Positions 3,429-64,000 of a stretch of 64,000 bases of DNA are shown piece by piece (within the stretch, counting starts at the first letter, position 1; every line of letters begins with the position of its first letter). The DNA comes from Cliona cf. orientalis (Eukaryota; Porifera; Demospongiae; Clionaida; Clionaidae). A program made the translations under genes and the position numbers. Below the pieces are notes generated by a model that saw nothing but the letters and a program-made list of their open reading frames with translations, was not told the DNA's origin and ran no database searches. Where the stretch lies: NCBI GenBank assembly GCA_963930775.1, contig OZ005693.1:248001-312000 (forward strand), read 5' to 3'.

Positions 3429-6400
3429 ATGCATATGATGATGAAGCTGCTGGCTTATCTCTCGATCTTTCCCTTCGTATCGACGACGCTGCTCTCTCTG
3501 CAGCCAACGATCCAAGCCAAGAAGTCTTCAGATCTCTCAGGCAGCAGTTTCGCGCCAGCCCGTCCGCGTGACACCAGAAGCGCAATGCCACCTGTGTCTC
3601 CAGCACATGACTCGTGCTTGAACAACGCAACGCGAGGATCTCGCGTCGAGTACACACTGGTAACTGCCAATTCTCCAGACTGCGAGGTTTCTCTGGTTGA
3701 CAACTTCCCCGTGAGAGTTCAGTACAGGCTGATACAGGAGACGAGTAATGGTGCGGATTCTCAATCATCTACTAAATGGATGGATCCCCTTTGCACGCCT
3801 TCTGTTATACCAGGTGAGAGCTTCCTTCACTCAAAGCAAACATTGTTAGTGAGTCTATTTCAAAGATATTGTATAAAGATGACTGTTAATTATAATAATA
3901 TAGACTCAGGCTGTGAAAATAACTTGACTTCATCAGCTGGTAATTTGCCAGTCCATGTCGCAGTGAGGTCTTATAGTCTTCAGTTGCCAAGTGACATCGA
4001 TCACATCAATGCTAGTCAGAGAGTTCAACTTCGTCTGGTCCAATCGGATCACAGAGGAGGATTCTGTGACTGTTGGGCTGTCTCTAATTTAAGGTTAACC
4101 TTGGTGGAATCCAGCAGCACCAATATTTCCCTAAAGTGAGAACTCCTAGCTAACTAAGTCACATGTACATTGTTAAATTCCTGCATTTTTGTTACAGTGA
4201 AGTTTGCAACACAAGTGGAGGAAGGTTTGATAGCTTATCGGCCTTCCTCGAACCTTATATGATAAACCAAAGTATGGTCAATGATTTGCTCACTTGCACA
4301 AGTCCACCAACTTCTACCAGCTCTTTTCTTGTTGGTTTTTGTCGCAATGGTAGTGCGAGTGTTCCTCGAGGGTTTGTCTCAGTTGAGCTTGGTGCTGAGA
4401 CCCAGTCACAGTGTGAGAATACTGCAGCTGTGGTGGACACTGGCAGACCTACTCCTCTAATGGGAGACCAATGTGATTCAATGCCACATGTGTGAGTTTA
4501 CTTTGCATAGATCATGAAATTTCTGTAATCTTGCCTCTACCATGCTTTTGACCCGCATGCGTTTAATAGCTGCTATCTGTTGAATAATACTATATTATAA
4601 TTATTGTATGTAGGAAAGTAAGATTTTCTCTCCTATTTGGTACAATAAATTCTTTTGATGAAGGGGTGGAGCTTTCATTTCGAAACTTGAACAGCAGTAG
4701 CAGAGAATGGATCCCGCTGATGTTCTTCACATCAAGAGATCCAAATGATCGAGATACAAGAATTAACATTGGGAATGTCAATACTTCCTCAAGTCAAGTC
4801 CAAATTCGAGGCTACAGTGTGCTTTATAATGTTGCTAATGATGCCAGTAGATCATTGAGCATCTGTGGCAGTGAGATCGTCCAAAATAATGGGATTTTCA
4901 ATCATATCCAGTTCCGATGGCTGCAGACAAATGCACAAAGGGTGGAAACAAATAGGGATACAGTTATGCTAGACGATGTTGAAATCTGCTCATATTTGAT
5001 TGAAAAATACCTGATCTTCGTCGACAATTTCAATAACCAAACTACCTTAGAGTAAGTGCATATTATTTTGATACTAATAATACGATTTTTGCTATCGTAT
5101 GTACAGTGGCAGTAGGTGGGCTAATTCACAGCGTGCAACAATAGAACAACGTCAACTTCAATTTGGAATGGCTGCACCTATATTTACTCCAACACCAAAT
5201 GGTTTAATCGGTAGTCGATGGGTATCCACTGTTTCCCTTAACCCCAACCCTCCTCCTCCTCAACTCAGCTATACCCTAATCACTGCGGCCGTGGCCACCT
5301 CTCCCTCAGCCTGTCTCAGCACTGATCCAACATTCATAGCACCACCTCTCAGGTTGGAGTATCGACGAGGGAGTCGTGATGGATGGAAAACACTTAACTA
5401 CCGTAAGGAAGTAACTGATATCACTGTCACTGAATGCATATTAATTTTAGCATGTTTAAACCTTCTGCAATCATTCTATAACTCTATAATATTAGATAAT
5501 GTCACGTCAGGAGACAGTTCGGCTACAACATTCATAACAGATTTGGACTACTACAGCGAGTACTTTCAGTTTCGTTTTGTTCAGTTGGATCACCGTGGAG
5601 GATTCTGTGACTGCTGGGCCGTGGCAAACCTCACTATCACATATCAGGGCTATACCAATGTGTTAAAGTAAGTCAGTGACATAATATTATTATGCATATG
5701 GAAGGCTAAACAACCATGGAGATGCATGCTATGCATGTACTGTTAGCACCTGCTTTTGAAGTTTCATGTGTATATTGGAGCCAAAGTGCAGAAAGGATGG
5801 GAGAGTAGGGAAGCAGATAACTTATCAATAATTATCAATAATTATTAGCCAATTATAGTGGTCTAGTAAACATAGTTGTTCATGCTGATATTTCCTCCTT
5901 CTCAATTTCAGGAAATTTTTGATTCCTCAATCTCAAATTAATACATTGCGTACCTTTCCCCCTTATTATAGTGAGACATGCACTGAAACGGGCAATATCA
6001 TACACAGCATGGACAACACAACCTATTATCGTTACTATGATGTCTTTGGCAACTCCCGTGGGGAGCTGCAGAGGAGTGGTGTGGCCGAACTGTGTGGGGG
6101 CAGTGCCAGTGTACCTCGAGGCTTTGCTACTCACAAGGCATACCTGAACAACTCTCAGTCCACTGGTGCTAGTGACCTATTGTCACCCTGTGATGATGAA
6201 TCGGTCGTCGTTGATGGCAAAGAAAATCCATTCACTGAATGCAATGACACGGAATTGAGAATGTAAGTCTGTAAGAATGAATTATGATGCACATTCAATA
6301 AAAGAAATCTCTTCGCAGAGAAGTAGCCTTTGATCTTGATTTTCTCACTGAGAGCGAATATTGCAACGATACTGTAGACAGTTTCCATGAAGGAGTTGAG

Positions 6401-9400
6401 CTGTCCTTCAGGAGCTTGGTACAAGATGAAGAAGAGATGACTCAGTCTGATGATGAATGGATTCCTCTGGTCTACTATGCCAGCAGTCTTGATCTTAGTG
6501 ATGGCAACGCCATTTTAGTTGTTGCGAATGGTACACCTATCAATGAAACAGGGGGGAGGTTCATGCTTAGGGGATACAGCGTGCCCTACATCATAGCAAG
6601 CAAAGATCGACATCGAGTAACTCTGTGCAGTGAAGCAGATCTTCTTGATTATCCGATGGAGTTTCGATGGCTGCAAACTTCCTCGATATCTCTAAACGGC
6701 AGAAGCACTGCAGAGGACATTATCCTGTTGGACAACATCAGTATAAGTCTACAGAACAGCTCTCACTCTGCTTCCCTCTTTGATGAGCGTTTTGATGAAG
6801 ACCCAAATTCACTACTGTAGGTTTCATAATGTACTTTGTCAATATAAGTAGCATTATTACTTGTGTTCATTAATTTATTTTGATGGTGCTTAGGAGCTCT
6901 GGTCTACTGAAGAAGGATAATGTTTGGCTATTGAATACTAGTTCTACTGTTAGTGATTGCGAGCCTATGAAGCAAGGTGGAGGAGCCCTTTTCTTCTACA
7001 CACAGCCAGCCAACACTTCTGAACCTCAGCCTAGCAGCGCTTCAGATGCTCCATTCACTAGAGCCACTATGATAAGTAGCCGTCAGCTTGTGATTGGTCC
7101 CCTGGACCCGGCAAATGTAACTCTAGAGCCCCGCCCACCGGCAACAATCACTCCTCCACCTAGCACTGATGGTAACAAAATTATTATTATTATTACGACA
7201 ATTAAATTTTATAAGTGTAATATGATTGCTATAGGAATTATGCCCACGACACAAGGTCAGAGTGCAGTAGAAAGTGAAACTCTTGAGATAATTGCTCGTG
7301 ATCCAAGAATATCTGGGATTCTGAGTTTGGTAAAAATGCAATTTTTGGGGATATGTATAATTTGTGTGTGCATAGCACGACTATTTGCATGGTAGTGTTA
7401 TTTACAAACATTGATTAACACAGATTGAGGAATCTCCCGAGATGGCCCTTCAAGTTCTGGCTTCTGTGTTGGGTGAGCCTGGAGGAGGAGGAGGAGAGGG
7501 AAATGGTTCCACTGCAGCTGATGATGATGATGTTGACCTCTCTGCAGCAGCCTACCTGCTCAGTCGGGTAGGCAGTGTTCTGGGGAATTCATCAGTGGAA
7601 CGAACAATAAGCGAAGTAAGCCTATAACTTCTTTGTCATATCAATTTACATAAAAGCATTGAATAAGACTGATTACATCTCATAACACTCCTCCCCGGAC
7701 CCCCCCCCCCCCCCCCCCCCCGGACCCCCCAAATTTAATGACATTGTATATTTTTTCATCAAAACTATTATCCACTCTGATGGTGATGTTTAGTCCATAT
7801 TTAAATCCCCCCCCCCCCCCCCCCCCCGGCCCCCCATTCAGTAATGATCCTTCCCCTTGGCATCTAACTACTATAGCACAATTATCATGCTGAATGCACT
7901 TGTGATGTATAATACACGCACACGTCAGGCATTTGTCTCTGTTGGTAACAATCTGCTGAACGCTGGTCAGAGAAGAACTGTCATGGGGGGAACTGGTGTA
8001 AGCTAATAGTTTGTCACTCATTTCTTTCACATTACTCAATTAGTCCGTTTCTATCCGTCTGCCCTGTGCAGGCGTCAGACGACACGGCTGGTAGCACTTT
8101 GCTTCAAGTGCTGGAGAGATTTGCTCTGAACAATCATGACGTTTCTCACCCACCTCCAACAAGCAACAACATCGGTATGATGGCATAACTAATTTTTTGT
8201 TCCTCTTTCTGTTGCATCCATATCGTCTGTATTCAGAGACAAAGAGAGGAATGTCTATTTTTGAAACAATAATATTTACAGTAATTGGTTGTTATATTTC
8301 TCTCTCTTTCCTCATGCAATTCTTTGCCCAATACACAAACGATGTCGTTGCTTTGAAGTATTTCATGTTCAAGAGCTGTTAATAGCTGAACCCGGCAAGT
8401 CAATAACTCCAATTGAGGAAGACGTCGCTGAAATAAGCATTCCAAGTGAAGTGCTGGCAAGCCAAGAAGATGGGAATCCAATCAGAATGGCCTCATTCCT
8501 ATTCAGAAACATGTCGGGCCTTCTACCACAAAGACTGAGCAGCAATGGAGCTGAAAATGATAGGTATGGTAGCACTACCACCTCCTTTGGTAGCCCATGG
8601 TGTTTATTCCACATACCTGTCAGTAATTTTTATGGAGGCCAGATACCTATGCTATACACTATGCACTGCCTTCCTCTGAGTCTCATAGTGAAGCCTGAAT
8701 GCCAAAGGATTTCCTATGATTCACAATGTGTAGGTTGTTTAGATCCATTACATAACTTTGGATCATAGTGACGAAAAATTGTGGCTTCTGTCACGTATTG
8801 AATGTATCACATCCTGCTATTAGCTATCTATAGGATTGGCATTAGCAATGGTGTGTGTGGTCAAATTGAAAGGATATTGAATAATATTATTGTTATGATT
8901 TGATCTTTGTGCAGTGATTCAGAGGGGGTGGTGTTTCGTTTGGCCTCTCCAGTCATCTCTGCCAGTTTCCAGTGTGATACTTGTACCACATCCAACCTCT
9001 CCACTCCAGTACAAGTCACATTCAGACACACTGAATATGATAGAGTATGTCTCAGAAACTAAAAAAATTATTTACAATGCTGCATCAACATGTAGTTAGA
9101 ATCATTAATATTCCATAGGTTTTGTTGGAAAACGATCGCAATAGTTCTGAAGTAAAGTGTGTCTTTTGGGACTTTGATGACACGTGAGTAATAAAACCCG
9201 ATAATTGTTTGTTTACCGTGAGTTATTTGAAAGTCATCAGTTTAAACACTTTTGCTCTTCAAAATTGGCAATTTACAATTTGGAGTTTGTAAATAGTAAT
9301 TGTCACCTCTCTTCCTCACACACACACACAGTCAACGTGAAGATGCTGTTCTCTTTGAAGGGCAGTGGTCAGAGGAAGGATGTCAGGTTAACCAAGATCT

Positions 9401-11195
9401 CTCCACACCCTCCATGACTGTCTGCGACTGCAACCATCTCACTAACTTTGCCATCTTGCTCAGCGCTCGACCTCCGACCTTTACACCGCCTCAAGCACTG
9501 GCGTTGCAAGTCATCGGCTATGTTGGAGTATCAATTTCACTGGTTGCCATGGCAGCAACTGTGTTTGTGTTCCTGTTCCAAAAGTAAGTAATGTATTTTC
9601 AGTCAAAGTTACAAAAATTTACTAACGTTTCCAAAATTAGGGCCCTTCGTACGATGCGTAACTACATTCACATTCAACTGTGTGTGACGCTGGCCATTGC
9701 TCAGATTATCTTTGTGGCTGGAATTGAGCCTCGTTTGGGGGAGGGGCATTTGGTGGGTGGAGTCCCAGTTGGCTGTCGATTGGTGGCTGTTCTCCTCCAC
9801 TACTGGTTCCTAGTCTCCTTCATGTGGATGCTGATGGAGGGCGTGGTCCTCTATGTTGCACTGGTCAGGGTCTTCATCAAGTCTCATGCTAGATACGTTG
9901 CAGCCTTCACCATTGCCAGCTATGGTAAGTATTGACAGAGACCATCTACATTGGTACTTAACAAGTAGCTATTTTCTCCAGGTTTGCCTCTGCTCTATGT
10001 TGGTGGTCTCACAGTACCTCTGGGCTTTGCTAGGAGTGAGGAGATGAGAAAGTATCAAAGCTATGACTATGGCTATGAGCAGGCGTAAGTAAAAAAAATG
10101 AGCTCTTCTCTTATAATAATAATCATGTACGTTTTCATCCCACGTTCAGCTGCTACTTGAATCCTGCCACTTCATTTGTCTGGTCACTGATTGCTCCGGT
10201 GATACTGATCCTGCTGGCTAACGTCGGCTTCTTCATAATGGCTGTTGTCATCATGTGCAGACACCAGAGGAGGCAGCAAGACAAGAACAAAACCAAACAA
10301 GTTAGGTAAGGACCAGGAAAGATGTCCATGACTGTACTGTACAATGTAATTGCTGGAATAATCCCAAATTTAGGCATTGGTTGAAGGCCTCCATCTCTCT
10401 GACTGTGGTGATGGGCATTACTTGGATCATTGGAGTTTTGGTGATAGAAGTTGAAGAGCTCTTTGCCCTTGCGTTCATCTTCACCATCTTTGTGGCCTTC
10501 CAAGGTCTCTTCATCTTTGTCATCTTTGTCCTGCTCTCAAAGCAAGTGAAAGAAAGCTACGCAAAATGGTGGAAGGCTAAAGTTGCTGAGTCCGATTTTC
10601 TCAGCAAACACTTTGGAGACAAGAGTATCGCTGCTTCTACCTTGGTAAATTTGCTACTTAGAGCTAGTACTAACTTACAAAATTATATTTTGATTTTGAT
10701 TTTTATGTTTCCCTCTTTTGGCAGACTACCCGACGCAGTGCTCCTTCAATATCATTCGCCAAGTCTAGTACTGCGCAGGAATCCAGTGAGGCAGCAGCTG
10801 GTGAGAAGTTTGAACTCTCTCAAAGTCGTGAAAACATCATTACAAATTCCTACATAGAAGAAGGGCCAGTGAATGACAAGGACGAGGAGAAACCTGTTCA
10901 AGACTTTGGAACTTCGTTCAATGTAATATTTGTCACGCGGCCCGACTCTGTCGCTTCGTGGAATATAATGAATAACGCCGACATAGAAAATGGATACATA
11001 AAAGAAGGTACTACTTGGCAGCAGCATGTAGCGCTAGAATATTAAATAGATAATGATGCTGTTCTGCTTTTCAATATAGGGTCGTCCAGTGATAATTTGG
11101 TGGAGATGGAGTTAAATGAAAACAGAGCAGTGCCTAATCACTATGTAGATAGTAGTGAGTTCATCCGGTACTCCCATGATAATACTCAACAATAA
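3429..11195 (+). CDS. Receptor A: adhesion GPCR with four reelin-like subrepeats (23 exons)
   Basis: Exons: 3429-3813, 3904-4135, 4198-4491, 4614-5051, 5107-5402, 5496-5667, 5972-6262, 6319-6816, 6894-7171, 7235-7329, 7424-7615, 7929-7997, 8072-8174, 8359-8563, 8915-9044, 9119-9183, 9332-9583, 9641-9924, 9982-10084, 10150-10305, 10374-10644, 10725-11007, 11080-11195; 1735 aa. The start is the first in-frame ATG before a hydrophobic signal peptide. Residues 30-870 hold four modules, each ending in HRGGFCDCWAVxNL or FRWLQ followed by a LDD/LDN block; a partial fifth follows. Then come GAIN (about 990-1245), GPS with CDCNHLT, and 7TM (about 1290-1560). The long Ser/Glu-rich tail is unique to A. 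Adhesion GPCRs normally self-cleave at HL|T and signal through G proteins. Introns 1 (90 bp) and 5 (93 bp) are open in frame, so retention is possible. The frame is intact throughout. Confidence 0.87.
7700..7827. repeat. Paired poly-C tracts in receptor A intron 11
   Basis: Two runs of 22 and 21 cytosines (7700-7721 and 7807-7827) are each followed by GG and a further C-run. They lie about 85 bp apart within the intron between the 7424-7615 and 7929-7997 exons. The complementary strand is G-rich and could form quadruplexes. Such runs are also prone to sequencing error. Confidence 0.9.
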
Positions 11196-11396: not shown

Positions 11397-14300
11397 ATGA
11401 AAGCGCTTGTTCTGATATTTCTGTCCCTCGTGCAATTCCTGGAGTCTCGCGCCACAGGCGCAGTTGGGGCCACCGCAACGGCGACGCCAGCGCCGCGCAA
11501 TTTCACGCTCGAGTACACCTTGATCACGGCCAACTCTCCGGACTGCCCGAGCTTCCAGGCATATCCACCACCACAACTACAATATCGAGAGGGACCAGAG
11601 ACTGAGTGGACTACCCTCACTAGTAAGATTCTTCTCATGTTTTAATACAATATCGTATAATATTATACTGTACTTGTACTGGTAGACATGGAGATGGTAA
11701 ATCATACAAATTTCACTACCTCCAAGAGAGCTCGTGTTGATGTTTCAAGATTTGTATTGAATCTATATCTTCAGTTGAATGGAAGCCAAGAGTTGCAGAA
11801 TAGTTCTCAGTTTCATTTTGTTCAGATGGAGCATCGTGGAGGATTCTGTGACTGCTGGGCCGTGGCAAACCTCGCTCTAAGGGAAAGGAATGGCTTGAAG
11901 TAAGTATTACCCACAATTCTACTATTGAAGGCTAATTAGCTAGCTGACTTATTTTCAGCATGCAGTGTGGTAAAAGGGTGAACTTAGAAGAAATCTTTGA
12001 AACATCACCAAACAAGCTGCCGGGATATGACCATGATGATGTCATTGCTGGATTCTGTCGGGACAGTGCACTCATACCCCGAGAATTCATCTCTGTGTTG
12101 GGTGTAACAAATTCACCAGCTCCAAACTGTACGATAGTTCCTCGTTTTACTCCTCCACGGACGGACTGTGGCATATCAGACACGAGAATGCAAGTCAATG
12201 GCATGTTGATCGATGCTGTGCCATGAACTGCTGTATTGTGATTAATTTTTTTTATCCTTTGCCCACATGCAGTGAAGTATCCTTTGATCTTAGAATTCTG
12301 ATTGCTAACTGTGATGGAATAGATGATTTCAGTGAAGGAGCTGAACTGTCCTTCAGAAGTGTTTTAGAGAATGGCACAACTACTGATTGGATCCCACTGA
12401 TGTTCTTTGCCCCTAACTTAAAGATAACTCAGCCCTATGTGCGGCTAATACTTCATGGCAATAATGGAAATTTCAACCTTAGGGGATATAACGTGGCTTA
12501 CACAATTCAAAATGAAACCGCTAGAAGCTACAATTATAGTATTTCCATGTGTGGAGGTGACATACTGTGCATGCGATGTCCATTGCAGTTTCGGTGGTTA
12601 CAAAATGCTTACCAAGTACAACCTGTCATCAGGGACGTAGTGCTGCTGGATAATGTTACAATCAGGTTGAAGAACAGTACACACTATGCAATCCTCTTGG
12701 AAGACTGCTTTGATTACAGTGGTTCTCTCATGTAAGGGTCATTGTATTATTACGATAATAATATTATTATGGTCCTTTTTAAAGATTATTAAATTTTCAT
12801 TCTTCGATAGTGCATCACGTTGGAATCTAAGTTCATCTTATAATATTCATCTTGATGTGCGGAATAAGGAGAGAAATTATTGCCATGGATCTTCAATAGT
12901 TGATAGAGCATTATTCTTCTATCCTGAATTATCTGAAGATTTCTTCTCTCTTATTAATAATGCTAGTAATAGACCTTATAGTGTCAACAGTCGACAGCTT
13001 GTCACCAATTTCCTTGATCCGAGTAATGTCGAGTGGTCTTACTTAGACCAAGGGACTGAGAATGTTTTAACATGTGAACCTCCGGATTTAACTACTACAA
13101 TCACTGAAGTGACTAGAACCACTACTTTACCAGAAGTGACAGGAGGGATGACAGAGATCACCGATGTTGTACAATCAACAGTGCCTGAGACGACTGCAAC
13201 CATCATCACCACTGAAGTATCTCCCACCACTGTGCTAGAAGGGATTATTCGGCTGGCTGTTGTTGGTAGCCTCAGTAGTCAGATGCAAGCTCAGATCATG
13301 GTTTGTACTAGTATACCCTAAACATATATTATAATATTATTTAAGTCACACTAAGATAGCCTCATTTTCCTCTTGTACACAGACGCTTATAATTAATGAA
13401 CAAGATGCCATGTTGGCATTGCAACAACTGAACACTTCGCTTAGCCTTTCACAAGAATGCAAGGTGAATCTGACTGCAGTTGTGTCCATTCTCAGCATTG
13501 TGGTGATGAACTTTGGCAATCAAATTGTTGAGCGACCCATCAGTGAGGTACATAATATGTAGGAGGAAAGATGTATCTGTTGATGTTTCACTACATGCTC
13601 ACATATTATACACATATCACATCACACACTATATAGTTGGTGTTGTCAATTGGCAGTCGTGTGATGGATATTGCCCGTACAAATTGCGCTACAGACACAA
13701 AGGATGATGTAGGCATATTAAATTTTACTATCTGCTCAAGGTGCCTATATGACTAGCGATATTTATTTGATATTTTTACAGCCACCAGAGATACCGGTTT
13801 TAGCCGGCAGCACTCTACTCCAAGTTATCGACAAATTTGCACTGACTAATCACGATGTGTCTTATGAAGTCACAAGCGACAATATCAGTGAGAGCTATAC
13901 ATTAAATTTGTATACTAGCTACAGTAACCACATTGTAACAATAATTATGGTTATGTGAATGTGCTAGAGTTGAATCCATGACATAGGCGCCACTTGTTGC
14001 TGGTGTCTGTTTCAGTTTTAGTAACAGCTTTCCTGCATGTGTCAAAAAAAAACAATAACAAAATCGAACTGCATGAGCTAAACATAAACCTTCCTTAATC
14101 CTAAACACACGCACTGCATGGTTGATCGTGACGCACTCGGTGTATCTTTCACTATGAAAACTCGAGACAATAAGCCATCCACTTGTTAATTAGCTGATGG
14201 CCCAAGGGCAATAATATTGTTGGCTCAGCGTGAAACTTGTGATAGGAATAACAATTATTATTAGTTTCAGTCAATTAAACACCCGGAATTCTCAATAATA

Positions 14301-17300
14301 ACATTATAATGCCAATGATGATTCAAATCATAACAAGATTGGAATTGTCATGCACGATTATTTTCAGAGTTCCTAGTGGAGGAATGGACACTGAATGATC
14401 ATGAAGTACCGTTCATTCGCTCACTGCACACAAATAGTGAAGATGCCACGATACATGTTCCAATATCATAATAAATCACTAAATAATATCATCAAGTTCT
14501 GAGATCGAGAACGGTAGTCCTGTCAGAATGGCTTCCCTACTCTTCAGGAATATGTCAGGGTTATTGCCAGAGAGGCTCCGTGAAGACACTAATATTATGA
14601 CCAACAGCAGGTCAGCTCAAAAAATTACGGTTATGCAAAGTTTAACGGAAGGAATATATATCATGTTTACTCATATGGAGCACTATTATCATAATGCACT
14701 GCTGTTGTTGACAGCCAGATCGATTGCATGTATTGAAAATACACTAAGATGATTAAATATTATTGTACGTAGTGCACTAGCGTTTCATGGATCATAACAT
14801 TTTGTGTTCATGCGCCAGCCACAGTGACTCTCGGACCCGGTGTGTAATAGTTCAAGACCTTACTACAAATAGTAGAGTATAATAGTGATTCATGTAAAAT
14901 TTAATCAATAGTGACAGTTTCCTCTAGACCACTACTGACTGCATGTCTTACCCAAATTTGTGAAATAATACTGTAACCATAATTATTGTGCATTATGCAT
15001 GCACTTTATATCAATACTCATAATAATTATTGTTGCATGGTACATTTCTTTCAGTGACTCTGATGACCTTGTGTTTCGTTTGGCCTCTCCGGTCATCTCT
15101 GCCAGTTTCCAGTGTGATACTTGTACCACATCCAACCTCTCCACTCCAGTACAAGTCACATTCAAACATACACCCTATGATCAGGTACATCATTACTTTA
15201 CCACAAGTTAATTTTCTACACATAAGCAATCACATAGAGTCTGGTTAATGAAATTAATGGTTGATATTAATCATTATAGGCTCTCTTGGAGAATGATGAT
15301 AATGGAACTGTGAGATGTATGTTTTGGAATTTCAGTGATACGTAAGTCAGAGGGATGGTATAATTATAATGTTAAAATTTGACTGAGTAATGGGTTAATG
15401 AGTATAGCTGCACATTAATTCTCACCGCGCCACTGTGGCGGTACACAACTACTGCACTCATTCTAAAACTAGATAAATAATTTATTTTGTGGCCGTAGCT
15501 GCATGGGGGCTTACCTGCATGTGCATCTGTTGACTTCATAAAGCTCCATTAATACTATGAATAATATTATTATCACAATCATGTTGTGCATACTGAAGAT
15601 TTTGGGAAAGGACAAGTATATAAGCTATTTTTAAGAGCACTTAATATGTTGATTTCAACATCGAGAAACCTCGTTGTTTGTAGTAAAGTTTTTGCTACGT
15701 AGGCAGCAAGATGTGAGTCATTATGACACACCAAATGCCAGACAAGTCGACACCAGCCTACCGTACCTACCTACAATCGTACATCACTAGGACCACCATG
15801 TATGGTAGTCCAACAGATGTAGTACATGCATGGTTGCCAGGGTAACCAGGTACAGTTGTTGTGGAATGCTAACAGTGAAAGTGCAGAGATTAGCTTCTAA
15901 GGTTGAGATTTGGACTGGTTCTATTGTTAGTGTGACCAAAAGTGTTGCTGTTATTTTTGCTGTACATAGTGAGGAGTCTGGAGCCATCCTCTTCCCAGGG
16001 CAGTGGTCTGAGGAAGGCTGTAAGACAAACTTCAACTCCACCATGACTGTCTGCAAGTGCAACCATCTCACTCACTTTGCCATCTTGCTCAGTGCTCGAC
16101 CTCTCAACCTCTCACCGGCAAAAATCTTATCCTTACAGATTATTGGATACGTCGGAGTATCCATCTCACTGGTTGCCATGGCAGCGACTGTATTTGTGTT
16201 CCTTTTCCTGAAGTATGTACGGAATTTATAGTCAAAATTGAAGCATAAAGTGTAATAAATTAATGCCAATGTTTCCAAAATTAGGGCCCTTCGTACGATG
16301 CGTAACTACATTCACATTCAACTGTGTGTGACGCTGGCCATTGCTCAGATTATCTTTGTGGCTGGAATTGAGCCTCGTTTGGGGGAGGGGCATTTGGTGG
16401 GTGGAGTCCCAGTTGGCTGTCGATTGGTGGCTGTTCTCCTCCACTACTGGTTCCTAGTCTCCTTCATGTGGATGCTGATGGAGGGCGTGGTCCTCTATGT
16501 TGCACTGGTCAGGGTCTTCATCAAATCTCATGCTAGATACATTGCAGCCTTCACCATTGCCAGCTATGGTGAGCACTACTAGCAAGGAATTGCCCAATAA
16601 TGATCTTCTGAATAAAATCCTCCAGGTTTGCCTCTGCTCTATGTCGGTGGCCTCACATCTCCTCTAGGATTTGTCAGGACAGAAAACTTCAGGCCAAATC
16701 AAAACTATGACTATGGATATGAGCAAGCGTAATAATTTTTATACCAGTATGAGACGAAAACTGAAATTTTTACCCCTCTTTATGCAGCTGCTACTTGAAT
16801 CCTGCAACAAAGTTCACTTTATCGTTCATTGTTCCAGTGATTTTTATTTTCCTGGCTAACATTGGTTTCTTCATAATGGCTGTTGTCATCATGTGCAGAC
16901 ACCAGAGGAGGCAGCGTGCAGAAAAGAAAACACATAAGATCAAGTAAGGCTATTTTTAAAAGTTGTGCGACTTGTGGATAATATTATAGAATCTGATTAT
17001 ATTGGTGTCTCGTACCTGCTATGAGAAAAGGGACCATTCATGTTAGTATGAAACGAGATCAATTATTTATCATGACAATGTCCAACTTGCTTTCTACAAA
17101 ATTAGTGAGTATACTTGTATCAGCGTATTGACATCAACATACAGCGGATACACCTACAGAATAGTATACATTATACTCTATGCATACTAGTACAAGCTAC
17201 ACATGACAAACATGAAGTCCCAAATGGTCCCTTTTCTCACAGTTGGTCTCATTTCTCTGTGAGTATCAATTACTATTAATACCAATCCACACTTTTTTTT

Positions 17301-32942: not shown

Positions 32943-32983
<41 letters not shown>

Positions 32984-52155: not shown

Positions 52156-55100
52156 ATGCGAGTTGGTCTAGCCCTCGCTATCCTTTTGTTCGTACTGCGA
52201 TGGCCGCTGAATCTCCAGCCTCTATGCGTCGCTGGAGGGCAGCCGACCCCAGAGACGACTGGCCTCACGGTTCAGTATACTATGATAGTAGCTAACTCCC
52301 CTGATTGTGAGCCTTCTCTGGTTGACAATTTTCCAGTAAGAGTTCAGTACAGGACGATAATGACTGGCGGTGATGGAGAAAGCGTCAGCCAATGGATGGA
52401 CTCTCCTAGGATGCCAGGTAGCTACATTATACCACAGATACATGTACCTGCATATTAAACTAATTAAGTATCGATAGTGTACAAACAGGAATTACTAACT
52501 CGACTGGTTGTGAGGCTATGTTGACTTCATCAGCTAGTAATTTGCCAGTCCATGTCGCAGTGAGGTCTTATAGTCTACTGTTTCCAAGTGATGTTGATCA
52601 CATCAATGCTAGTCAGAGCGTTCAACTTCGTCTGGTCCAATCAGATCACAGAGGAGGATTCTGCGACTGTTGGGCTGTCTCTAACTTAACAATCAGATTC
52701 ACAGCATCAAATTTGGAGGCTACTTCAGTGTAAGTATAGCTAATTGATCAGCTAATATTTATTATGCATCATAAAAATTATTTACAGGCCTAGACAGACA
52801 TGTGATTCAGATGGGATGAATTATACCAGTTTGTCAGATTTTCTTGGAGATTTTGCAATTGATAGCACATGCACTTACTATGTGTATAGACCAAAATTTA
52901 CTTTCTGCTGACACATCATTTCTTGGTTTTTGTCGAGGTAGTGCGAGTGTTCCTCGAGGGTTTGTCTCAGTTGAGTTTCAAGGTGCTGAGACCCAGTCAC
53001 AGTGTGAGAATACTGCAGCTGTGGTGGACACTGGCAGACCTACTCCTCTAATGGGAGACCAATGTGACTCAATGCCTCATCTGTGAGTTTACTTTGCATG
53101 GATCATCAAGTACGTAATCTTGCCTCCATGCCACTATAGACCTGCATGTGTTTAAATGCTGCTAGCTATAGCTGTTGAATAATATAATTGTTTTTATGCA
53201 CAGGGAAGTAACATTTTCTCTCCAACTTGGTGGTACAGTTCCAGGAAATACTCTGAATTCATTCGATGAAGGAGTGGAGTTTTCATTTCGAAACCTGAAC
53301 AGCAGTAGGAGAGAATGGATCCCACTGATGTTCTTCACATCAAGAGATCCGAGTGATCGAGATACAAGAATTTACATAGGGGAAATTTCCGATGGTCGAG
53401 TCCAAATTCGAGGCTACAGTGTGCTTTATAACAGCACTATCGCTAATGATGCCAGTAGACCACTGGATGTTACTCTGAGTATATGTGGCAGTGAGATCGT
53501 CCAAAGTAATGGAATTTTCAATCATGTCCAGTTCCGATGGCTGCAGACAGCCACACATACTGCTGACCCAAATAGGGATAGAGTTCTACTAGATGATGTT
53601 GAAGTACATTCATACTTGATTAACGGATCTTCATGGATGATTTCAACAACCAAACTACCTTAGAGTAAGTGCATAATACATACTAATATTAATTCTTACT
53701 ATCGTCATTTTTTTTATTATTATAGTGACAGTAAGTGGAGTAATGCACAGCGTGCAACAATACAACAGCAGCAACTTCAATTTGGAATGGCTGCACCTAT
53801 ATTTACTCCAACACCAAATGGTTTAGTCGGTAGTCGATGGGTATCCACTGTTCCCCTGACTCTTAGCATCCCGATAATGTCCACTACAACAGCTACTGTT
53901 GCTATAGCCACCACTGACTTGTCGGCAACTACAAAAAGTGCAGAGGTTCTGGAGGACGATATTCTAAAATATATTAGGGAAACTTCGACATTTAACCGCA
54001 TCCGTGCTCTGGTGAGTGTAGTGGGTACTATGTACCTGTACATACAGTTCAGTTGACATTGTAATAATTGTGACATTGTAGATTCTAAATGGATCTTTAA
54101 CAGCAGCACTGATGAACCTAAACACAGATATAATACAGAGCCCTACTGTATATAACGAGGATGAGCCCGAGGATTCTGCAGCAACTGTCTACCTCCTCAG
54201 TGCCACTGTTAATGAGCTGGGAAACCAGACAGTTGAACCAGCCACCAGTCAGGTATGTGTGTAGGTGTAGTGGAGAATAATATACATACATCCTTTTTAT
54301 GTAATTATCATTGTATTTTCTCTCTGCATTAACAAAAATATGAAGATATTTTTATCAGTAGCAAGTGGAGTTTTGGACATAGCTCAAAGGCGGCTGCAGG
54401 CTGCAGCTGGAAGGGAACAAGATGTAAATAAAGCATGGTTAATCCACATGGTGTACTGTGGCCACACTAATGATAATTATTATTGCCCAATTATTGTATA
54501 GTCGTTAGAACTCCAGTACCTAGCTGGAAGCACCCTGCTCCGGACTGTGGATGAATTTGCTCTCAACAATCACAACACATCATCTCCTCCAGTCACCAGT
54601 GACAATATCGGTATGCTAGTAGCCTACAGTCATGTGACATGTGTGAGACAGCGTGAATATGAGTGATTATAATAATTATTACATAGGGAAAAATTTTCTA
54701 CATAATATTTCATTATAATTTTTACAACAAACAAGTACAAGACTGTGGTATTCGACATAATATGCTCTACTCTGAAAAATAAGTGTAGGAAAGCTCATGT
54801 TTTGGCCAGCATGCATGACATACGTAAGGAAATCTTAGTCTTGGTCAAGTCATTGAAAAATCTAATAAAAGTATCAATCTACCCGGCCTGATCACATCAA
54901 TATCCACAATAATCAGTCGCCTACTTTAATTAATGGTTCTAATAATATCATGCATGCACTTGTACAGTTTTTCGTGTTGAAGAGTTGTCAGTAAATGGAA
55001 CTGGTGCAGTATCACTTTCTCCCATACAAGGAGAAAATGCTGAGATCATTATTCCAATAAGAGAAGTGTTGGCAGGCCTTGAAAGTGGAGCAGAGGTTAG

Positions 55101-57300
55101 GATGGCTGCTCTACTCTTCAGAAACATGTCAGGACTACTACCAGACAGCACTGACTATGAGGACAGGTAATAGCTAATAGCTGGAGCTAGTGTATATGGG
55201 AGTGAGAGGGAGAGAGAGTGCTATCATACAGCCATTGCATGTGCATGATAACGTAGGAGTCAGTGTTTTTGTGATTGTTTGTAGGTCTCTAGCTATATAA
55301 AGAATTTCATGCATGGTATGGATAATAATTATAACTAGCTACCGGTTGTAGGTACAAGACTGTGGTATTCGACATATGCTCTACAGTGACTATAATAATC
55401 ACTGGACCAAAACTAAGATTTCTTTATTTATGTCGTGCATACTGATTGCAAATCATAGAGCTTCCCTACACATGTTTGTTTGAAGATAGGGCAGATTCTG
55501 AAATGTGTAGAAGTTCTTCCCTATCCTACACATCTCCTTACATGCGTGAAATCCATAATTGTTTTTGTCTAGTGTATAGTTTACAGAGTATATAGCTACA
55601 ATAATAATATTATAGAACTTCAAAGACTTGCATACACACATCAGACATGTACCTTATCTATCCATGCAAATGTAGCAACACGGATGACCAGCTTGTGTTT
55701 CGTTTGGCCTCTCCAGTCATCTCTGCCAGTTTCCAGTGTGATACTTGTACCACATCCAACCTCTCTACTCCAGTGCAAGTTACATTCAAACACACTGAAT
55801 ATGATCAGGTTAGTCCGTATGCTAGTGAATAATCTACAACTTAATTTTAATATTATTGTTAGATTCTTTTGGGAGACAACTTTGATGGCTTGGTGAAGTG
55901 TGTATTTTGGCAATTTGATGAACCGTGAGTATAAAATTTTTAATAATAAGTAGGCCCAGTTAAACATGTGCATGCCCCCTAGGGATCAGTCTGGAGCCAT
56001 CCTCTTCCCAGGGCAGTGGTCTGAGGATGGCTGTGAGACAAACTTCAACTCCACCATGACTGTCTGCAAGTGCAACCATCTCACTCACTTTGCCATCCTG
56101 CTCAGCGCTCGACCTCTTGATCTCTCACAGTCAAAAATCTTATCCTTACAGATTATTGGATACATTGGAGTATCCATCTCACTGGTTGCCATGGCAGCAA
56201 CCATGTTTATATTCCTTTTCTTGGAATGCAAAATTAATGCTAACATTTCCAAAAAGAGACCTCTTGTTACGATGCGTAACTACATTCACATTCAACTGTG
56301 TGTGACGCTGGCCATTGCTCAGATTATCTTTGTGGCTGGAATTGAGCCTCGTTTGGGGGAGGGGCATTTGGTGGGTGGAGTCCCAATTGGCTGTCGATTG
56401 GTGGCTGTTCTCCTCCACTACTGGTTCCTAGTCTCCTTCATGTGGATGCTGATGGAGGGCGTGGTCCTCTATGTTGCACTGGTCAGGGTCTTCATCAGTC
56501 ACCATGCTAGATACATTGCAGCCTTCACCATTGCCAGCTATGGTAGGTGTGGAACACTAAACTGAGAAGAATTATCTCCCATAGCTACACTGATTCCTCC
56601 AGGTTTGCCTCTGCTCTATGTTGGTGGTCTCACAGTACCTCTGGGCTTTGCTAGGAGTGAGGAGATAAGGAGAAATCGAAACTATGATTATGGCTACAAG
56701 CAGGCGTAAGTTTGTTCTTCACTTCATATTTGATATCTACTACTTGTATTATTATTGCATATCCAGCTGCTATCTGAATCCCGCCAGCTCATTTGATTGG
56801 TCACTAATTCTCCCAGTGATTCTGATTCTACTGGCTAACATTGGCTTCTTTATAATGACCCTTGTTATCAAGTATAAAAACCAGAACCAAACCGAGAAGC
56901 ATAAAGAAAAATCCAAGCAAGTTTGGTAAGCTTTTGCTAATTTGGATTCAGAGATATTAAATTTGAAAGAAAAAACCATAATTGTTAAGGAATTGGTTGA
57001 AGGCCTCTATCTCTCTGGCTGTGGTGATGGGCATTACTTGGATCATTGGAGTTCTGGTGATAAATGGTGGAAGGCTACGGTCTCTGAGTCTGATTATCTC
57101 GGCAAATACTTTGGACAAAATTTAATAAACCTTACCTCCACACTGGTCAGTGACTTGTATCATGTGATGTAATAGAGCGGCTAGCCTAATGATTTTATCC
57201 ATTTAATTAGACCTCTCAGGGTATTGTATCTTCTTCTCTGAAATCATCAGAAGCCAATGGTGAAAAAATTCCAGTTGTTGTCTCAAAGTGAAATTAATAA
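52156..57300 (+). pseudogene. Receptor H: broken adhesion GPCR, C-type ectodomain on E-type 7TM, TM7 deleted
   Basis: Recognisable exons: 52156-52417, 52489-52729, 52788-53082, 53204-53664, 53726-54011, 54082-54252, 54346-54423, 54502-54610, 54968-55166, 55676-55808, 55863-55924, 55983-56542, 56603-56705, 56767-56925, and 56990 to a stop at 57123-57125. Exons 1-11 are C-type (exons 4-5 closest to A). From the GPS exon on it is E-type. Lesion 1: exon 3 is 295 bp where relatives are multiples of three, and TGA 52909-52911 is in frame. Lesion 2: exon 4 is 461 bp, and TAG 53661-53663 comes at its end. Lesion 3: 118 bp are missing between 57060 and 57063, removing the end of TM6 and all of TM7. 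The tail region near 57213-57300 is also degenerate. Splice sites remain good, so decay is recent. A truncated secreted product from the first exons is conceivable. Confidence 0.85.
55458..55574. repeat. Short hairpin repeat, copy 3 (receptor H intron 9)
   Basis: Paralogue of the 21834 copy: GAGCTTCCCTACAC, an inverted GATAGGG / CCCTATC core, TTTTTGTCTAGTG. It sits in the same intron of the C-type gene layout. Confidence 0.55.
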
Positions 57301-57492: not shown

Positions 57493-57604
57493 AGAAAGGG
57501 TCGTCAAAGTGATACGATTCGCGCGCGCAAAATCTAGGCATTCGCAATAGATCAGCTTTTATCCACGCCTCCTTGAAGCCACTATATAACTAGACTTCAA
57601 ATGA
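57493..57604 (+). promoter_or_regulatory. Diverged E-type promoter block upstream of receptor I
   Basis: GAAAGGGTCGTCAAAGTGA is conserved. The palindrome is altered to TTCGCGCGCGCAAA, and the GCATGCGC motif has become GCATTCGC. A TATATA-like stretch lies near 57584. Confidence 0.5.
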
Positions 57605-57644
57605 CTTGCATGCTACTTGCTGAGCATGGAATAAGCCAGACATT

Positions 57645-60600
57645 ATGAACTTGTTTTATCTCTTAATTTTTCAGTGCGGATTGTTTTGTTTATCGAAGGC
57701 CTCGCCTCGAAGCATATCAGGGTCAGTTTCTCCCTCTGGCGCCGCGGCACCCCCGACACATCGAGTCGCTCGAAGAACTGCGTCACAGCAGGCCACCGTC
57801 GAGTATACTTTGATAACTCTCAATTCTCCTGACTGTAAGAATTACACGGTCGACAAATTTCCCGTGAAGGTGCAGTACAGGGTTACTGCAAATCCAGGAC
57901 TTACTAGTGACAGATCTAGGGAATGGATCAGCTTGGATTCCATGATTGAAAAAAGTAAGTATCATGCAGCAAGAAATCATACTATATTTTCTAATCTACC
58001 TAAGTGGTAATGAATAAACTGAAAGATACACATAATTTGTGCTAGTTTAAAAATTTAATAAAGATTTATTCTTCACTAAACACAGGTTCAAGCGGATGTG
58101 AATCTTTCCCCCTGCCTCCATCAGATGGCGATGATGACATTAGGGCCAATGTGAGATCCTACAGTGCAGTGATTCCCAATATCAGCCCAATCAGTGATGA
58201 TCAGAGAGTTCAACTTCGTCTGGTCCAATCAGATCACAGAGGAGGATTCTGTGACTGTTGGGCTGTTTCTGATCTAACACTAAGACATGAAGATTCCACT
58301 GTCCATGACATTCCACTGAAGTAAGTTCCAATTATAGCTCATTCTTATCGGAAAATGTAACATTATTATTGCTACAGTCGATCTTGTGCCACAAGTGGAG
58401 ACGTTTATGCCAGTTTATCAGCTTTCCTTGGACAATCTGGCAGCAGTGGTGATACAGTCACTTGCACGAACCACACCATTTCTTCTCCAACATCAGTTCT
58501 TGGTTTTTGTCGAGGTAGTGCGAGTGTTCCTCGAGGGTTTATCTCAGTTGAGTTTGGTGCTGAGACCCAGTCACAGTGTGAGAATACTGCAGCTGTGGTG
58601 GACACTGGCAGACCTACTCCTCTAATGGGAGACCAATGTGACTCAAGATCAATGCCTCATGTGTGAGTGGAAAAATATCTATAGGATTTGATCCTCACCA
58701 TTGCATGATTATTTTGCAGAGAAATAATATTTTCCCTCGATATGGTTGTCAGGCAAGGTTCTTTGGATTCACTAGATGAAGGTGTGGAGTTTGGATATAG
58801 ACTAAATGAAAATGAGTGGATCCCTCTTGCGTGGTACTCATCTCGAGATAACCGAGATGATTGGATTAAAATTGGAACATTGATGGATAATAATCTCATG
58901 GTACGAGGATTCAGTGTACCATTTATATTATATGGAAATGCACACAATGTTGCATTGAAGCTGTGTGGCAGTGAGATCATAGAGGATGGTGCCTCACTGA
59001 GCTTCAGGTGGCTACAGACAGTTAACTCTAGTCTAGATCCAGGTGTAGATAATATAGCTATTGATGATGTTCAGATTGGCATTAATTCTTCCACACTGCA
59101 ACTTGTGCTACTTATGGATAATTTTGACAATCAGATGACCATCAAGTAGGTTATGTTAATTAAGTACTTATCTTCACATCAACTTGTAACTTACACAATC
59201 ACCTATTTCATGATCAGCTCCAGTAGATGGCCTGTCATTGATCGTGCGACAATTGAAAACAGCCAACTAGTGTTTGGTGCAGAGAGTCCAATGTTTGGTC
59301 CACTCCCTCCATTGGGACCTAATGGTCCAAGGCGAACCATCATCAGTCGAAGAATATCCACTGTCCCTCTCCATCTTAGTTTCCAAATACAACTCAGCTA
59401 CACTTTAATCACAGCCAGCTCTCCAGATTGTCCAAATACTGACCCAGCACCACCTCCCAGGCTGGAGTATCGAGCTAATGGTTCACAAAACTGGATGGTT
59501 ATCGAGCCAGGTACCCAAGGAAATTAAGCACTTATGAAGTGCTACAATAATCATCTACTGGCATAATATTATTATTATCATGAATATTCATATAGATAAC
59601 ATCTTTGTAACTGAAGAACAATACATGGCAGTAAGAAGCTATTCAACCAGTATTGGTGGCATAGCTCTAAGTGCACTACCAGTTCAATTTCGTTTTGTTC
59701 AGTTGGATCATCGTGGAGGATTCTGTGACTGCTGGGCCGTGGCAAACCTCACAGTCACTCCACCAAATGGACAAGCTACAGAACTATCGTATGTTCCATT
59801 TTGGTGGTCATTTATGATAAATAATTTGTTATTATCACGTACATTTCAGTGAGGTATGCGGTGGGAACACCTCAGAAGCCTTCCAGTCACTTTTGGAGAG
59901 AGTATCCAATCAGACATCAGGGACGTTAGGTGACGGTATTATTGCTGGATTCTGTTGGGACAGTGAAGGCATACCTCAGGTGTTTATCGCTCAATTTGGA
60001 GGTACACCTCTTGAAGGATTAGGAGAATGTAACAGTTCTGATCTAGTTTTGGAGACAACAACGGAAGATGAAGGTACTGACATGACTACAACAAATATAA
60101 ATGCACGGGAATCTGATGTCCGAGATAGCATCATCATGGAGAATGGAAATTTTAGTTTAATTTTAGTCCAGGTATGTTGAATTCATAGCACACATACACA
60201 TACACACAATAACACACTATGCAGATTGAAAGCAGATCATACACAAGTGCATTGGTGATTCTGAATGACTTTGTGAGTCTCAGTGTGACTACAGCTGCTG
60301 CTGGTAATGTGAACTTAACACAAGCCTCCTATCTGCTCAGTGCTATAGTGAATGGTTTTGGCAACCAAACAGTCGGACAAGGTGTCAGTGAGGTATTTAA
60401 TAATATTATATCTCAATCTGAGGCACATAGCTATTAATGCACTGTTTCTATTTCATGCACACTCAAACACATTAAACAGTTGGTTTTGTCAACTGCCAGT
60501 GGACTCTTGGAAATTGCCCAAAACCGAGTTGAAAATGGAATAAATGTATACTCCCTTTTGTAGTTTGCTAGCCCTATTATCATAGTGATTCTGTTTATGC

Positions 60601-63247
60601 CTGTGATATAGAAACCAGATATCATTGCCGGAAGCACTCTGCTTCAAGTCATTGATCAGTTTGCTCTCAACAACCACAATATATCTCATCCAGTCACAAG
60701 TGATAACATTGGTATGTAGCTATTGCCCTATAATAATAACATTAATTATTATGATGGATATATATGGCATGCACAAATTAAGTCTTTCTAGTTAAAGAGA
60801 TATCTTTGAATGACGTTGAGGATGAATTCATCCTTGGTGTGTCAGAGGAAAGAGCTAAAATACGTATTCCAAGAATAGTTTTGGAAAGAAGTGATCAAGA
60901 TCCTGTCAGAATGGCTTCTCTGCTCTTTAGAAATATGTCAGGGCTGCTACCAGAGAGGCTGGAGGGAAATGAAAGTGATCGGTTGGTTAACGCAATTTTG
61001 AATGAAATCTGATATTATTATTATACCTTTCTCTATCTCAAATGCATACACACACATAACATACCCTATCAGCAGAAACCTTCAGGCTTGTGTTTCGTTT
61101 GGCCTCTCCAGTCATCTCTGCCAGTTTCCAGTGTGATGCTTGTACTACATCCAACCTCTCCACTCCAGTACAAGTCATATTCAGACATACACCCTATGAT
61201 CAGGTTAGTCCATATTACTATCAAGACAATTAAGCTGCATTAATGTAAATTTAAATGGGGTACTTAATATCTAGCTATCTACCTCCTGGTCAAAGTATAC
61301 TGATTTGCAAGTATTTTTTTTACTGAATTCTGAGTATGAAATTTAATACTAAAAAGTAGTGGAGATTAATTATCATTTACTGGAAACCAATCTGCTGGTT
61401 ATAGAGCTTAATTTTGCATGATACATGCCACAAATTATAAAATTATTATAGTAGCCACATGCCATAACTTCCTCATTTCAGGCTCTAGTGAACGGTGATC
61501 CTGAAGGCTCAATCGTGTGTGTTTTCTGGGACTTTGATGATGAAATTGAGTAAGCACTAGTTAATTACAAGTATACTATAGTGGTTTGATGTTACCGAAC
61601 TAAAAACAGAATGTATAGAGTTACATTTTCCATGAAAATTTAATATACATGAGCTAATTTGTACCAGCCCTGGATCGATAGCTATCTCTGGTATTAGAAT
61701 AGCAATATTATGCACTTTGACCTTAAATCTTAGAGTGCAGCCTGGAGCCATCCTCTACCCAGGGCGGTGGTCTGATGAAGGCTGTGAGACAAACTTCAAC
61801 TCCACCATGACTGTCTGCAAGTGCAACCATCTCACTCACTTTGCCATCTTGCTCAGTGCTCGACCTTTTGACCTCTCACAGGCAAAAATCTTATCCTTAC
61901 AGATTATTGGATACATTGGAATATCCATATCACTGGTTGCCATGGCAGCAACCGTGTTTATATTCCTTTTCTTGGAGTGCAAAATTAATGCTAACATTTC
62001 CAAAAAGAGACCTCTTGTTACGATGCGTAACTACATTCACATTCAACTGTGTGTGACGCTGGCCATTGCTCAGATTATCTTTGTGGCTGGAATTGAGCCT
62101 CGTTTGGGGGAGGGGCATTTGGTGGGTGGAGTCCCAATTGGCTGTCGATTGGTGGCTGTTCTCCTCCACTACTGGTTCCTAGTCTCCTTCATGTGGATGC
62201 TGATGGAGGGCGTGGTCCTCTATGTTGCACTGGTCAGGGTCTTCATCAGTCATCATGCTAGATACATTGCAGCCTTCACCATTGCCAGTTATGGTAAGCA
62301 TGGAATACCGACACTGAGAAGAATTATCTCCTGTAATTACATTCCTCCAGGTTTGCCTCTGCTCTATGTTGGTGGTCTCACAGTACCTCTGGGCTTTGCT
62401 AGGAGTGAGGAGATGAGAAAGTATCACAGCTTTGACTATGGCTATGAGCAGGCGTAAGTTAAAAATTAATTTCTCTTCTCTTCACATCTAATGCTTAAGC
62501 TTATCATTATTGCACGATATTATATCCAGCTGCTATCTGAATCCCATGAGCTCATTCGTGTGGTCACTCATTCTCCCAGTGATTCTGATCCTACTGGCTA
62601 ACATTGGATTCTTTATAATGACCCTTGTTATCAAGTATAAAAACCAGAACAGAACTGAGCAGCACAAAGAAAAATCCAAGCAAGTTTGGTAAGCTTTTGC
62701 TAGGATTACTCAGATATTTGAATAATCATAATTATTATTATAAAGGAATTGGTTGAAGGCCTCCATCTCTCTGACTGTGGTGATGGGCATTACTTGGATC
62801 ATTGGAGTTCTGGTGATAGAAGTTGACGAGCTCTTTCCCCTCGCTTACATCTTCACCATCTTTGTGGCCTTCCAAGGTCTCTTCATCTTCATCTTGTTTG
62901 TGCTGCTCCAAAAACCAGTGAGGGAGAGCTACGCTAAATGGTGGAAGGCTACGGTCTCTGAGTCTGATTATCTCAGCAAATACTTTGGACAAACAAACCT
63001 TACCTCCACACTGGTCAGTGACTTATATCATATGACATAATAGATCCAGTAATTAAAATTTATACACGTTTAGACCCCTCAGGGTATTGTACCTTCTACT
63101 CTGAAATCACCAGAAGCCAATGGTGAAAAGATCGAGTTCAAATTGTCTCAAGGTGAAATTATCAAAAATCTGAATGTCAAAGAAGGTACTGAACCGGATG
63201 AAGAACAGCCTCAACAAGAAAGAGAGCAGCATCCAATGACTGCATAG
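57645..63247 (+). CDS. Receptor I: adhesion GPCR with three reelin-like subrepeats (18 exons)
   Basis: Exons: 57645-57954, 58086-58320, 58378-58662, 58720-59145, 59218-59510, 59596-59788, 59850-60171, 60225-60392, 60480-60545, 60612-60711, 60792-60981, 61086-61203, 61482-61549, 61734-62293, 62351-62453, 62530-62688, 62746-63013, 63083-63247; 1342 aa, frame intact. Same plan as E and F: signal peptide MNLFYLLIFQ, three subrepeats, a truncated fourth with a one-copy stalk motif, GAIN, GPS with CKCNHLT, 7TM with the exonised first loop, and an acidic tail. Exon 12 has 7 extra bases near its start. They create a new acceptor (CTTCAG, ending 61085), and using it instead of the ancestral one restores the frame at the cost of one Asn. 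Exon 14 starts at 61734, after CTTAG, because this alone gives the paralogous reading into the GPS. Confidence 0.86.
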
Positions 63248-63384
63248 ATTTAAGAAATTTCATCATTCTAGATTCACAGTCAAATTACTGTAGATGATAG
63301 ATCAACAAATTTTAGCTAAAAACTCTTAATACGACACCTCAAAATCAATTTTTTTGATAATATTAAGGTTTGCCCAAGTTGATA

Positions 63385-63500
63385 ATAAGGACCGTCAAAA
63401 TGACACGATTTGCGCGTGCAAAATCTGGGCATGCGCAATAGGTGATATATTTTCCCACGCCTCCATGAAGCCTGGTATACTAGATCGACTTCAAATGGCC
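63385..63500 (+). promoter_or_regulatory. Diverged E-type promoter block upstream of receptor J
   Basis: GACCGTCAAAATGACACGA, TTTGCGCGTGCAAA (palindrome with one change) and GGGCATGCGCAATAGG are in the same order as before E, F and G. Confidence 0.5.
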
Positions 63501-63541
63501 TCAGCCTGAGTCCTTGCTAAGCTTTGAACAAGCCAGACATC

Positions 63542-64000
63542 ATGAACTTGTTTTATCTCTTCATTTTTCAGTGTGGATTGTTTTGTTTATCGAAGGCCTC
63601 GCCTCGAAGCATATCAGGATCAGTTTCTCCCTCTGGCGCCGCGGCACCCCCGACACATCGAGTCGCTCGAAGAACTGCGTCACAGCAGGCCACCGTCGAG
63701 TATACTTTGATAACTCTCAATTCTCCTGACTGTAAGCTTTACCCGATCGACAAATTTCCCGTGAGGGTGCAGTACAGGATTACAAATTCAGATCTTAGCA
63801 CATCTAGGGAATGGATCAGCTTGGAGTCCATGATTGCAACAAGTAAGTATCATGCAGCAAGAAATCACATTGTATTATCTAATCTAGCTAAGTGGTAATG
63901 AATAACTGAAGGGTACACATTGTGACAGTGGCAAAATAATTATTTTTTACTAAACACAGGTTCAAATGGATGTGAATCTTTCCCCCTGACTCCATCGGTT
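63542..64000 (+). CDS. Receptor J: tenth adhesion GPCR of the array (first exons only)
   Basis: Exon 1 is 63542-63842 and exon 2 begins at 63960; the gene is cut by the window edge. Exon 1 encodes the signal peptide MNLFYLFIFQCGLFCLSKAS and the start of the first reelin-like subrepeat (EYTLITLNSPDC, FPVRVQYR). It is nearly identical to E and G exon 1, so the E-type plan is expected downstream. The array therefore continues beyond the window. Confidence 0.85.

Follow-up and report, generated by a model that had tools for sequence, protein, structure and literature searches.

The window, a stretch of 64,000 nucleotides of the Cliona cf. orientalis genome (contig OZ005693.1, labelled C5 here; C5:248001-312000), lies in a tandem array of adhesion G protein-coupled receptor (GPCR) genes, probably lineage-specific, whose ectodomains are probably chains of diverged homologues of reelin subrepeats. 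The products are predicted to be receptors that cleave themselves and carry a tethered agonist beneath a reelin-like recognition head, on the basis of reelin-like half-modules, a GAIN-like region, a GPS of CNHL/T type, a class B seven-transmembrane (7TM) domain and, by eye, a signal peptide. The new element is an apparent rule, found in four architectures, for the half-modules with which the heads start and end.

The genome comprises 216.8 Mb in 149 contigs. A tblastn search of C5:230001-430000 with the exons of receptor gene g5 as query gave 289 exon matches, all on the + strand, and these sort into 23 tandem adhesion-GPCR gene copies. The window contains g1-g9, each with matches from head through 7TM, plus the 5' start of g10 (Table 1). 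Two copies are damaged: g12 has no 7TM match and carries stops in exon 4, and g15 lacks most head exons. Module relatives were also located outside the array (at 2.92-2.98 Mb on C5, 3.08 Mb on C16, 6.63 Mb on C2, 1.14 Mb on C1 and 436-454 kb on C19), with 7tm_2 matches near every one of these loci.

Splice models were built with a simple GT-AG joiner for eight window genes (g1, g3-g9); g2 and 14 copies outside the window were left out. Five of the eight models (g3, g4, g5, g6, g9) contain neither a stop nor a problem junction, those of g3 and g4 starting without the first methionine. Flagged joins are present in g1, g7 and g8: the g1 model has two, together with one internal stop in its 7TM part, where an undetected intron is possible, and in g8 exons 2 and 3 lack a junction and the last exon is split over two frames.

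Several other sequence features were recorded. A 72/221-base tandem repeat lies upstream of the first whole gene (window 179-693). Between the signal peptide and the first half-module, g5 (30312-30464), g6, g7, g9 and g10 carry an HRVARR stretch, which we take to be a possible proprotein-convertase site. A coding minisatellite in g7 (47593-48236; 48/99-base unit, the 48-base unit being present about 13 times) lengthens a Thr-rich stalk, at which the g4, g5, g6 and g9 models each have one unit of TTEDEGTD type. Elsewhere in the genome, a silicatein-like coding sequence (C12:3671600-3672050) has Ser at the catalytic Cys position (QGQCGASYAF), as would suit a siliceous sponge, for which silicatein is a marker, and a second silicatein-like match lies inverted about 2.5 kb away; the silicatein-like sequence at C19:4533600 and the best-scoring cluster on C16 have Cys at this position.

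Table 1. Features of the window (positions in the window; module halves are numbered 1, first, and 2, second).
Feature	Position	Strand	Parts and basis
Receptor g1	3429..10857	+	A2 half 3645-4133; B 4205-5046; C 5111-5641; D 6003-6799; E first half 6922-7176; GAIN 7523-9181; GPS+7TM 9333-10650; tblastn exon matches and splicing
Receptor g2	11508..17576	+	Second half 11508-11894; D 11966-12714; E first half 12908-13030; GAIN 13416-15339; 7TM 15971-17576; tblastn order
Receptor g3, class II	18465..23670	+	A2 half 18465-18910; B 18971-19789; C first half only 19859-20029; then GAIN, GPS+7TM
Receptor g4	24428..29755	+	A2 24428-24881; B 24974-25724; C 25797-26371; D1-like 26462-26782; then GAIN, 7TM
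Receptor g5	30312..36217	+	Signal peptide from 30312; A2 half 30465-30977; B 31033-31794; C 31867-32444; D1-like half 32515-32853; GAIN 33017-34308; GPS+7TM 34527-36217; complete model, 17 coding exons, 1307 aa, 0 internal stops
Exon 3 3' tract (GFCRGSASVPRG...)	31159..31314	+	Homogenised among copies
Receptor g6, class I	36783..44633	+	Splice model
Non-LTR (LINE-type) reverse transcriptase frame	39477-41633	-	RVT_1 1.8e-31; in the long g6 intron between 39266 and 41579
Receptor g7, class I	45177..51541	+	One flagged join inside exon 13
Receptor g8, class II	52270..57169	+	A2 52270-52715; B 52901-53606; C first half 53730-53876; then GAIN, 7TM
Receptor g9, class I	57645..63034	+	1296 aa model, 0 internal stops
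Receptor g10, start	63542..64000	+	Runs on past the window end

The receptor core was identified by Pfam and structure-database matches. For the whole g5 protein, Pfam listed three families only at E ≤ 0.1: 7tm_2 (7.6e-45, over positions 3-250 of 250), GPS (2.9e-13) and Reelin_subrepeat-B (1.2e-10). The Pfam GAIN family was unlisted for g5 at this threshold; the GAIN-GPS stretch matched ADGRL3 (6vhh) at E 4e-9 over 206 residues (query 76-281), and its match to ADGRG1 covered the last 84 residues. The CNHLT motif is intact in all eight spliced genes, as is the HFAILLSA or NFAILLSA that follows it. The receptors therefore share the GAIN-like region, the CNHL/T GPS and the class B 7TM with ADGRL3 and other GAIN-GPS-7TM receptors, and differ from them in the reelin-like head. 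The ectodomains described for adhesion GPCRs of Amphimedon (PMC4302439) and choanoflagellates (PMC12716839) include HRM, laminin G, EGF, LRR, FN3, Calx-beta and other domains, and 0 occurrences of the word "reelin" were listed for either paper.

A preliminary description of this DNA had proposed a single scheme of motif blocks for all head modules. The blocks were found where it placed them (tblastn on the nine window copies running from head to 7TM, and spliced models), but they fall into two module types, each with its own motif set. Modules A and C read YTLITAxSxDC ... LEY ... FRFVQxDHRGGFCDCWAVANL, and modules B and D read FCRGSASVPRG ... EGVEF ... EWIPL ... FRWLQ ... AIDDVQI. A and C plainly form a single family (hhalign P 4.4e-31). 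B matches the pooled A+C profile weakly, though in register along 107 columns (P 0.0018, prob 15), and lacks a significant match to C taken by itself (P 0.055 in one direction and 0.028 in the other), so that B is tied to A and C mainly via reelin.

The kinship with reelin, which had been read from motif order, was supported by profile comparison. A reelin profile was prepared from eight subrepeats of solved structures, with letters taken from PDB matches, and was aligned with the module profiles by hhalign. It matched C at P 3e-7, B at P 1.3e-7 and A+C at P 8.2e-9, in register, and the best values from 150 column-shuffled reelin decoys were far weaker (0.0044, 0.017 and 0.0015, respectively). 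With window genes only, P was 9.2e-8 for C and 2.5e-5 for B. The C19 sequence in the B profile had originally been found via the reelin model, and the comparison was therefore rerun without it (P 8.8e-8). For the C profile set, g0, g2 and g12 were dropped and the first g1 copy was replaced by a hand-joined one; divergent first-exon rows were left out of alignment A6. Modules and reelin subrepeats (PF21471; PDB 2DDU, 2E26, 3A7Q, 6A48) have the same strand order and landmarks (CG..AL.F; R..T.dL; C; LEY..W; FRW.Q...WA.DN), and hold a common register along about 95-130 columns.

The whole g5 receptor scored 41.6 bits for Reelin_subrepeat-B, above the curated cut-off of 27. All 15 spliced C modules matched this family at E ≤ 1 (best 8.2e-7, 29.3 bits). 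Among ten single C modules with bit scores, two were above the cut-off (27.9 and 29.3) and eight below (13.7-26.8), the lowest score belonging to a module of the second cluster on C5. Scored singly, modules A, B and D were all under the cut-off. Exact reversals of five C modules gave no Reelin_subrepeat-B match in Pfam, and four of the five gave DUF7099 at E 0.05-0.085, which is chance level. Single sequences were also scored with an HMM of the eight reelin subrepeats. The top score among 6,900 shuffles was surpassed by 44 of the 69 modules (C 15/15, A 25/25, B 3/25, D 1/4). With just 4/29 single B or D modules above the shuffles, the case for B rests on the profile.

Searches of wider databases were less sensitive. 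With the C profile A9, the sole PDB chain at E ≤ 10 was reelin 6a48 (E 0.2, with no individually passing stretch), and reelin was absent from PDB searches with the narrow profiles A1 and A2. A genome search with the reelin model gave eight scored candidates, four of which matched at E ≤ 1: two in the array, one at C19:436428 (a module relative near 7tm_2) and one at C8:8276551. The last was set aside as a chance match, its frame being FN3-like by eye. Since six-frame searching of the genome detects few of the modules, the lack of reelin elsewhere in the genome is weak evidence. The C19 locus (C19:434928-438296, - strand) holds a divergent module, FRWMQ...WWLDDI, near 7tm_2, with 23-30% identity to array modules.

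These data support the reading of the modules as diverged homologues of reelin subrepeats, as judged at the sequence level, and not as reelin repeats of the A-EGF-B kind. The Asp-box pattern S/T-x-D/N-x-G-x-x-W was found in none of the 69 modules and in six of the eight reelin subrepeats used; a review states that it occurs in all reelin subrepeats (PMC4882317). The reelin subrepeat is a jelly roll of two sheets and 11 strands, with calcium bound on its convex side. The EGF family was unlisted for g5 (Pfam, E ≤ 0.1) and the modules directly abut one another. It is the absence of both features that leads us to speak of diverged subrepeat homologues. Further differences from reelin are the CDCW with which A and C modules close, the membrane-receptor context in place of a secreted protein, and a chain that begins and ends mid-module.

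An alternative places the modules in a different beta-sandwich family (MAM, Eph ligand-binding or CBM-like), their likeness to reelin then being a shared generic jelly-roll pattern. AlphaFold models of B and C were of low confidence (pLDDT 46.7 and 54.1, both queries including intron residues), and Foldseek searches with them gave no PDB match at E ≤ 0.001. Among the best 50 matches listed, reelin ranked 5, 7 and 46 in the B listing and 28 in the C listing, amid many unrelated beta-sandwich proteins: Eph receptor domains, a MAM-containing receptor and TNF-like folds stood alongside it, all non-significant, and the best match for B was the bacterial InhA2 peptidase. The models being poor, their fold matches were not counted as support for the reelin reading. 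MAM receptors (PTPRK, PTPRM, neuropilin) are also comparable as beta-sandwich adhesion heads with a closing motif, ...DIA(I/L)DDI/V..., like that of the B modules. However, a profile of two MAM sequences failed to match the modules: P was 0.71 with C, where reelin gave 3e-7, and 0.022 with B, where reelin gave 1.3e-7. In Pfam scans of the modules, MAM, Eph, LamG, CUB and Ig were unlisted at E up to 10 or 1, at which the HMMER filters drop most matches above 0.1; MAM, LamG and Ig had been named beforehand as folds that could displace the reelin reading. An origin from MAM, LamG, Ig, CUB or Eph domains was rejected because these Pfam scans listed none, and for MAM additionally by the two-sequence profile. 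We consider a non-reelin beta-sandwich family unlikely overall, and retain the assignment to diverged reelin subrepeats.

Each module was split at the boundary between the two reelin halves, the first of which reads CG..AL.F..R..T.dL. It had been proposed that two to four modules precede GAIN-GPS-7TM in each gene; modules are indeed present there, but the first is a second half only and the last a first half only. This arrangement was found in 22 of 22 rows covering the 23 array copies (a single row stands for both g12 and g13, the damaged g12 and g15 are included, and one row opens with a stray extra A2 fragment), and in four architectures: A2-B-C-D-E1, A2-B-C-D1, A2-B-C1 and A2-D-E1. It follows that first and second halves are equally many in every gene. 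The last half of class I genes (exon 7) has 38% identity to its g2 counterpart (E 4e-6), and is called D1-like because that counterpart runs into the second half of D. Module first halves matched reelin first halves at P 1.3e-4, and in class II genes the similarity to exon 5 stops at the half boundary.

By eye, the ten window genes have a signal-peptide-like stretch and a short linker and then the second half, as do the C16, C2 and C1 loci; in g2 the signal-peptide-like stretch lies directly ahead of the half module. Using a first-half HMM, no C/E-type first half was detected at E ≤ 0.1 in the 1.2 kb upstream of 20 genes; the same HMM gave 26 matches across the whole array, which is partly its own training source. 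No B/D-type first half precedes A2 in tblastn order. In g1 and in five class I genes that were measured, the introns separating halves are of phase 2, and g3 has one exception; in-frame gain or loss of halves is therefore possible.

The half-module rule could reflect history alone, a permuted fold or a closed head. Since a second half opens the head and a first half closes it in all four architectures, the folding unit might be a circularly permuted reelin subrepeat, or the first and last halves might form a split domain that closes the head into a ring, its ends meeting at GAIN; we hold these structural readings to be possible yet doubtful. If true, the heads would have a new ectodomain design, and a ring clasped by a split jelly roll next to GAIN, which cleaves itself, would lend itself naturally to use as a switch that force or a ligand opens. 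In this way the rule turns into a concrete question of how the heads fold and whether they close.

Comparison of the copies indicates that heads and 7TM parts have been reassorted within the array. In g7, g18 and g22, class I heads are joined to the exon-16 type of g3; in g8 and g13, class II heads are joined to a 7TM of g5 type; and in g4 the start of a class II head is fused to a class I body. The 3' tract of exon 3 (156 bases) has 87-100% identity in 21 array matches, 20 of them at ≥93.8%, with diverging flanks. Its between-class dS was 0.045 (88 pairs), compared with 1.009 in the 5' half of exon 3 and 1.546 in exon 4 (108 pairs), g10 and g12 being left out of the exon 3 test. A copy at the C2 locus, on another chromosome, has 92% identity over 149 bases. 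The low dS and the C2 copy point to gene conversion or exchange, and the tract is a candidate gene-conversion hot spot. Purifying selection alone was rejected as its cause, synonymous change being low too.

For class I genes (12 genes, g4 included; copies with stops removed per exon, exon 13 keeping 10/12), omega was 0.33-0.82 in exons 1-7, 0.21-0.60 in the GAIN exons and 0.17-0.35 in the 7TM exons 13-16. Omega exceeded 1 in none of the 15 class I exons tested, values that are blurred by exchange between copies, and positive selection is thus not indicated. These values bear on the possibility that the receptors are reelin-related but chiefly non-signalling adhesion tethers, with the 7TM as an anchor. 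Such tethers would suit the large ectodomains, with 12-25 N-glycosylation sequons ahead of the GPS in each of the eight models, and the long Thr-rich stalk of g7. The class I 7TM exons, however, are among the most constrained (GAIN exon 10, at 0.21, and head exon 7, at 0.33, also being low), and the GPS is intact in all eight models, so that a mainly anchoring role of the 7TM appears improbable. Even less plausible is an array largely of decaying duplicates with rules produced by recent copying: the damage in g12 and g15 and the broken last exon of g8 fit it, but five of the eight modelled genes splice cleanly (two of these, g3 and g4, without a first methionine) and omega is below 1 in all 15 class I exons.

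For signalling receptors with reelin-like heads, the following mechanism can be proposed. In adhesion GPCRs generally, the GAIN domain cuts itself at the GPS, and a tethered agonist stays behind (PMC12716839). Here, GAIN would cut itself between L and T of CNHLTHFAIL (CNHLTNFAIL in g1), and the head would stay on non-covalently after the predicted cleavage. A putative ligand on matrix, a microbe or an adjacent cell may bind the reelin-like head; binding or pull would then shift or strip the head, baring the THFAILLSA tethered agonist, which would turn on the 7TM core. The array could act as a repertoire in which faster-changing heads (omega 0.33-0.82) sit on a conserved signalling core (0.17-0.35) and would be shuffled through unequal exchange and gene conversion. 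That the array receptors recognise microbes or other sponges is our guess; up-regulation of a sponge adhesion GPCR by microbial signals has been described (PMC6208332).

The combination had been put forward as lying outside the standard receptor classes, and among the open-access papers listed in literature searches, none paired reelin with an adhesion GPCR in its title or the start of its abstract. Since Pfam itself can assign Reelin_subrepeat-B, database annotations of the pairing may exist. Reelin has been studied as a secreted brain-wiring protein. A reelin subrepeat on self-cleaving sponge receptors would place the domain in a neuron-free animal, and on a receptor instead of a ligand. The sponge receptors may thus reflect an early use of the reelin building block in sensing, and the array, in which the heads are reassorted while the core is conserved, would be a candidate recognition repertoire in an animal without adaptive immunity.
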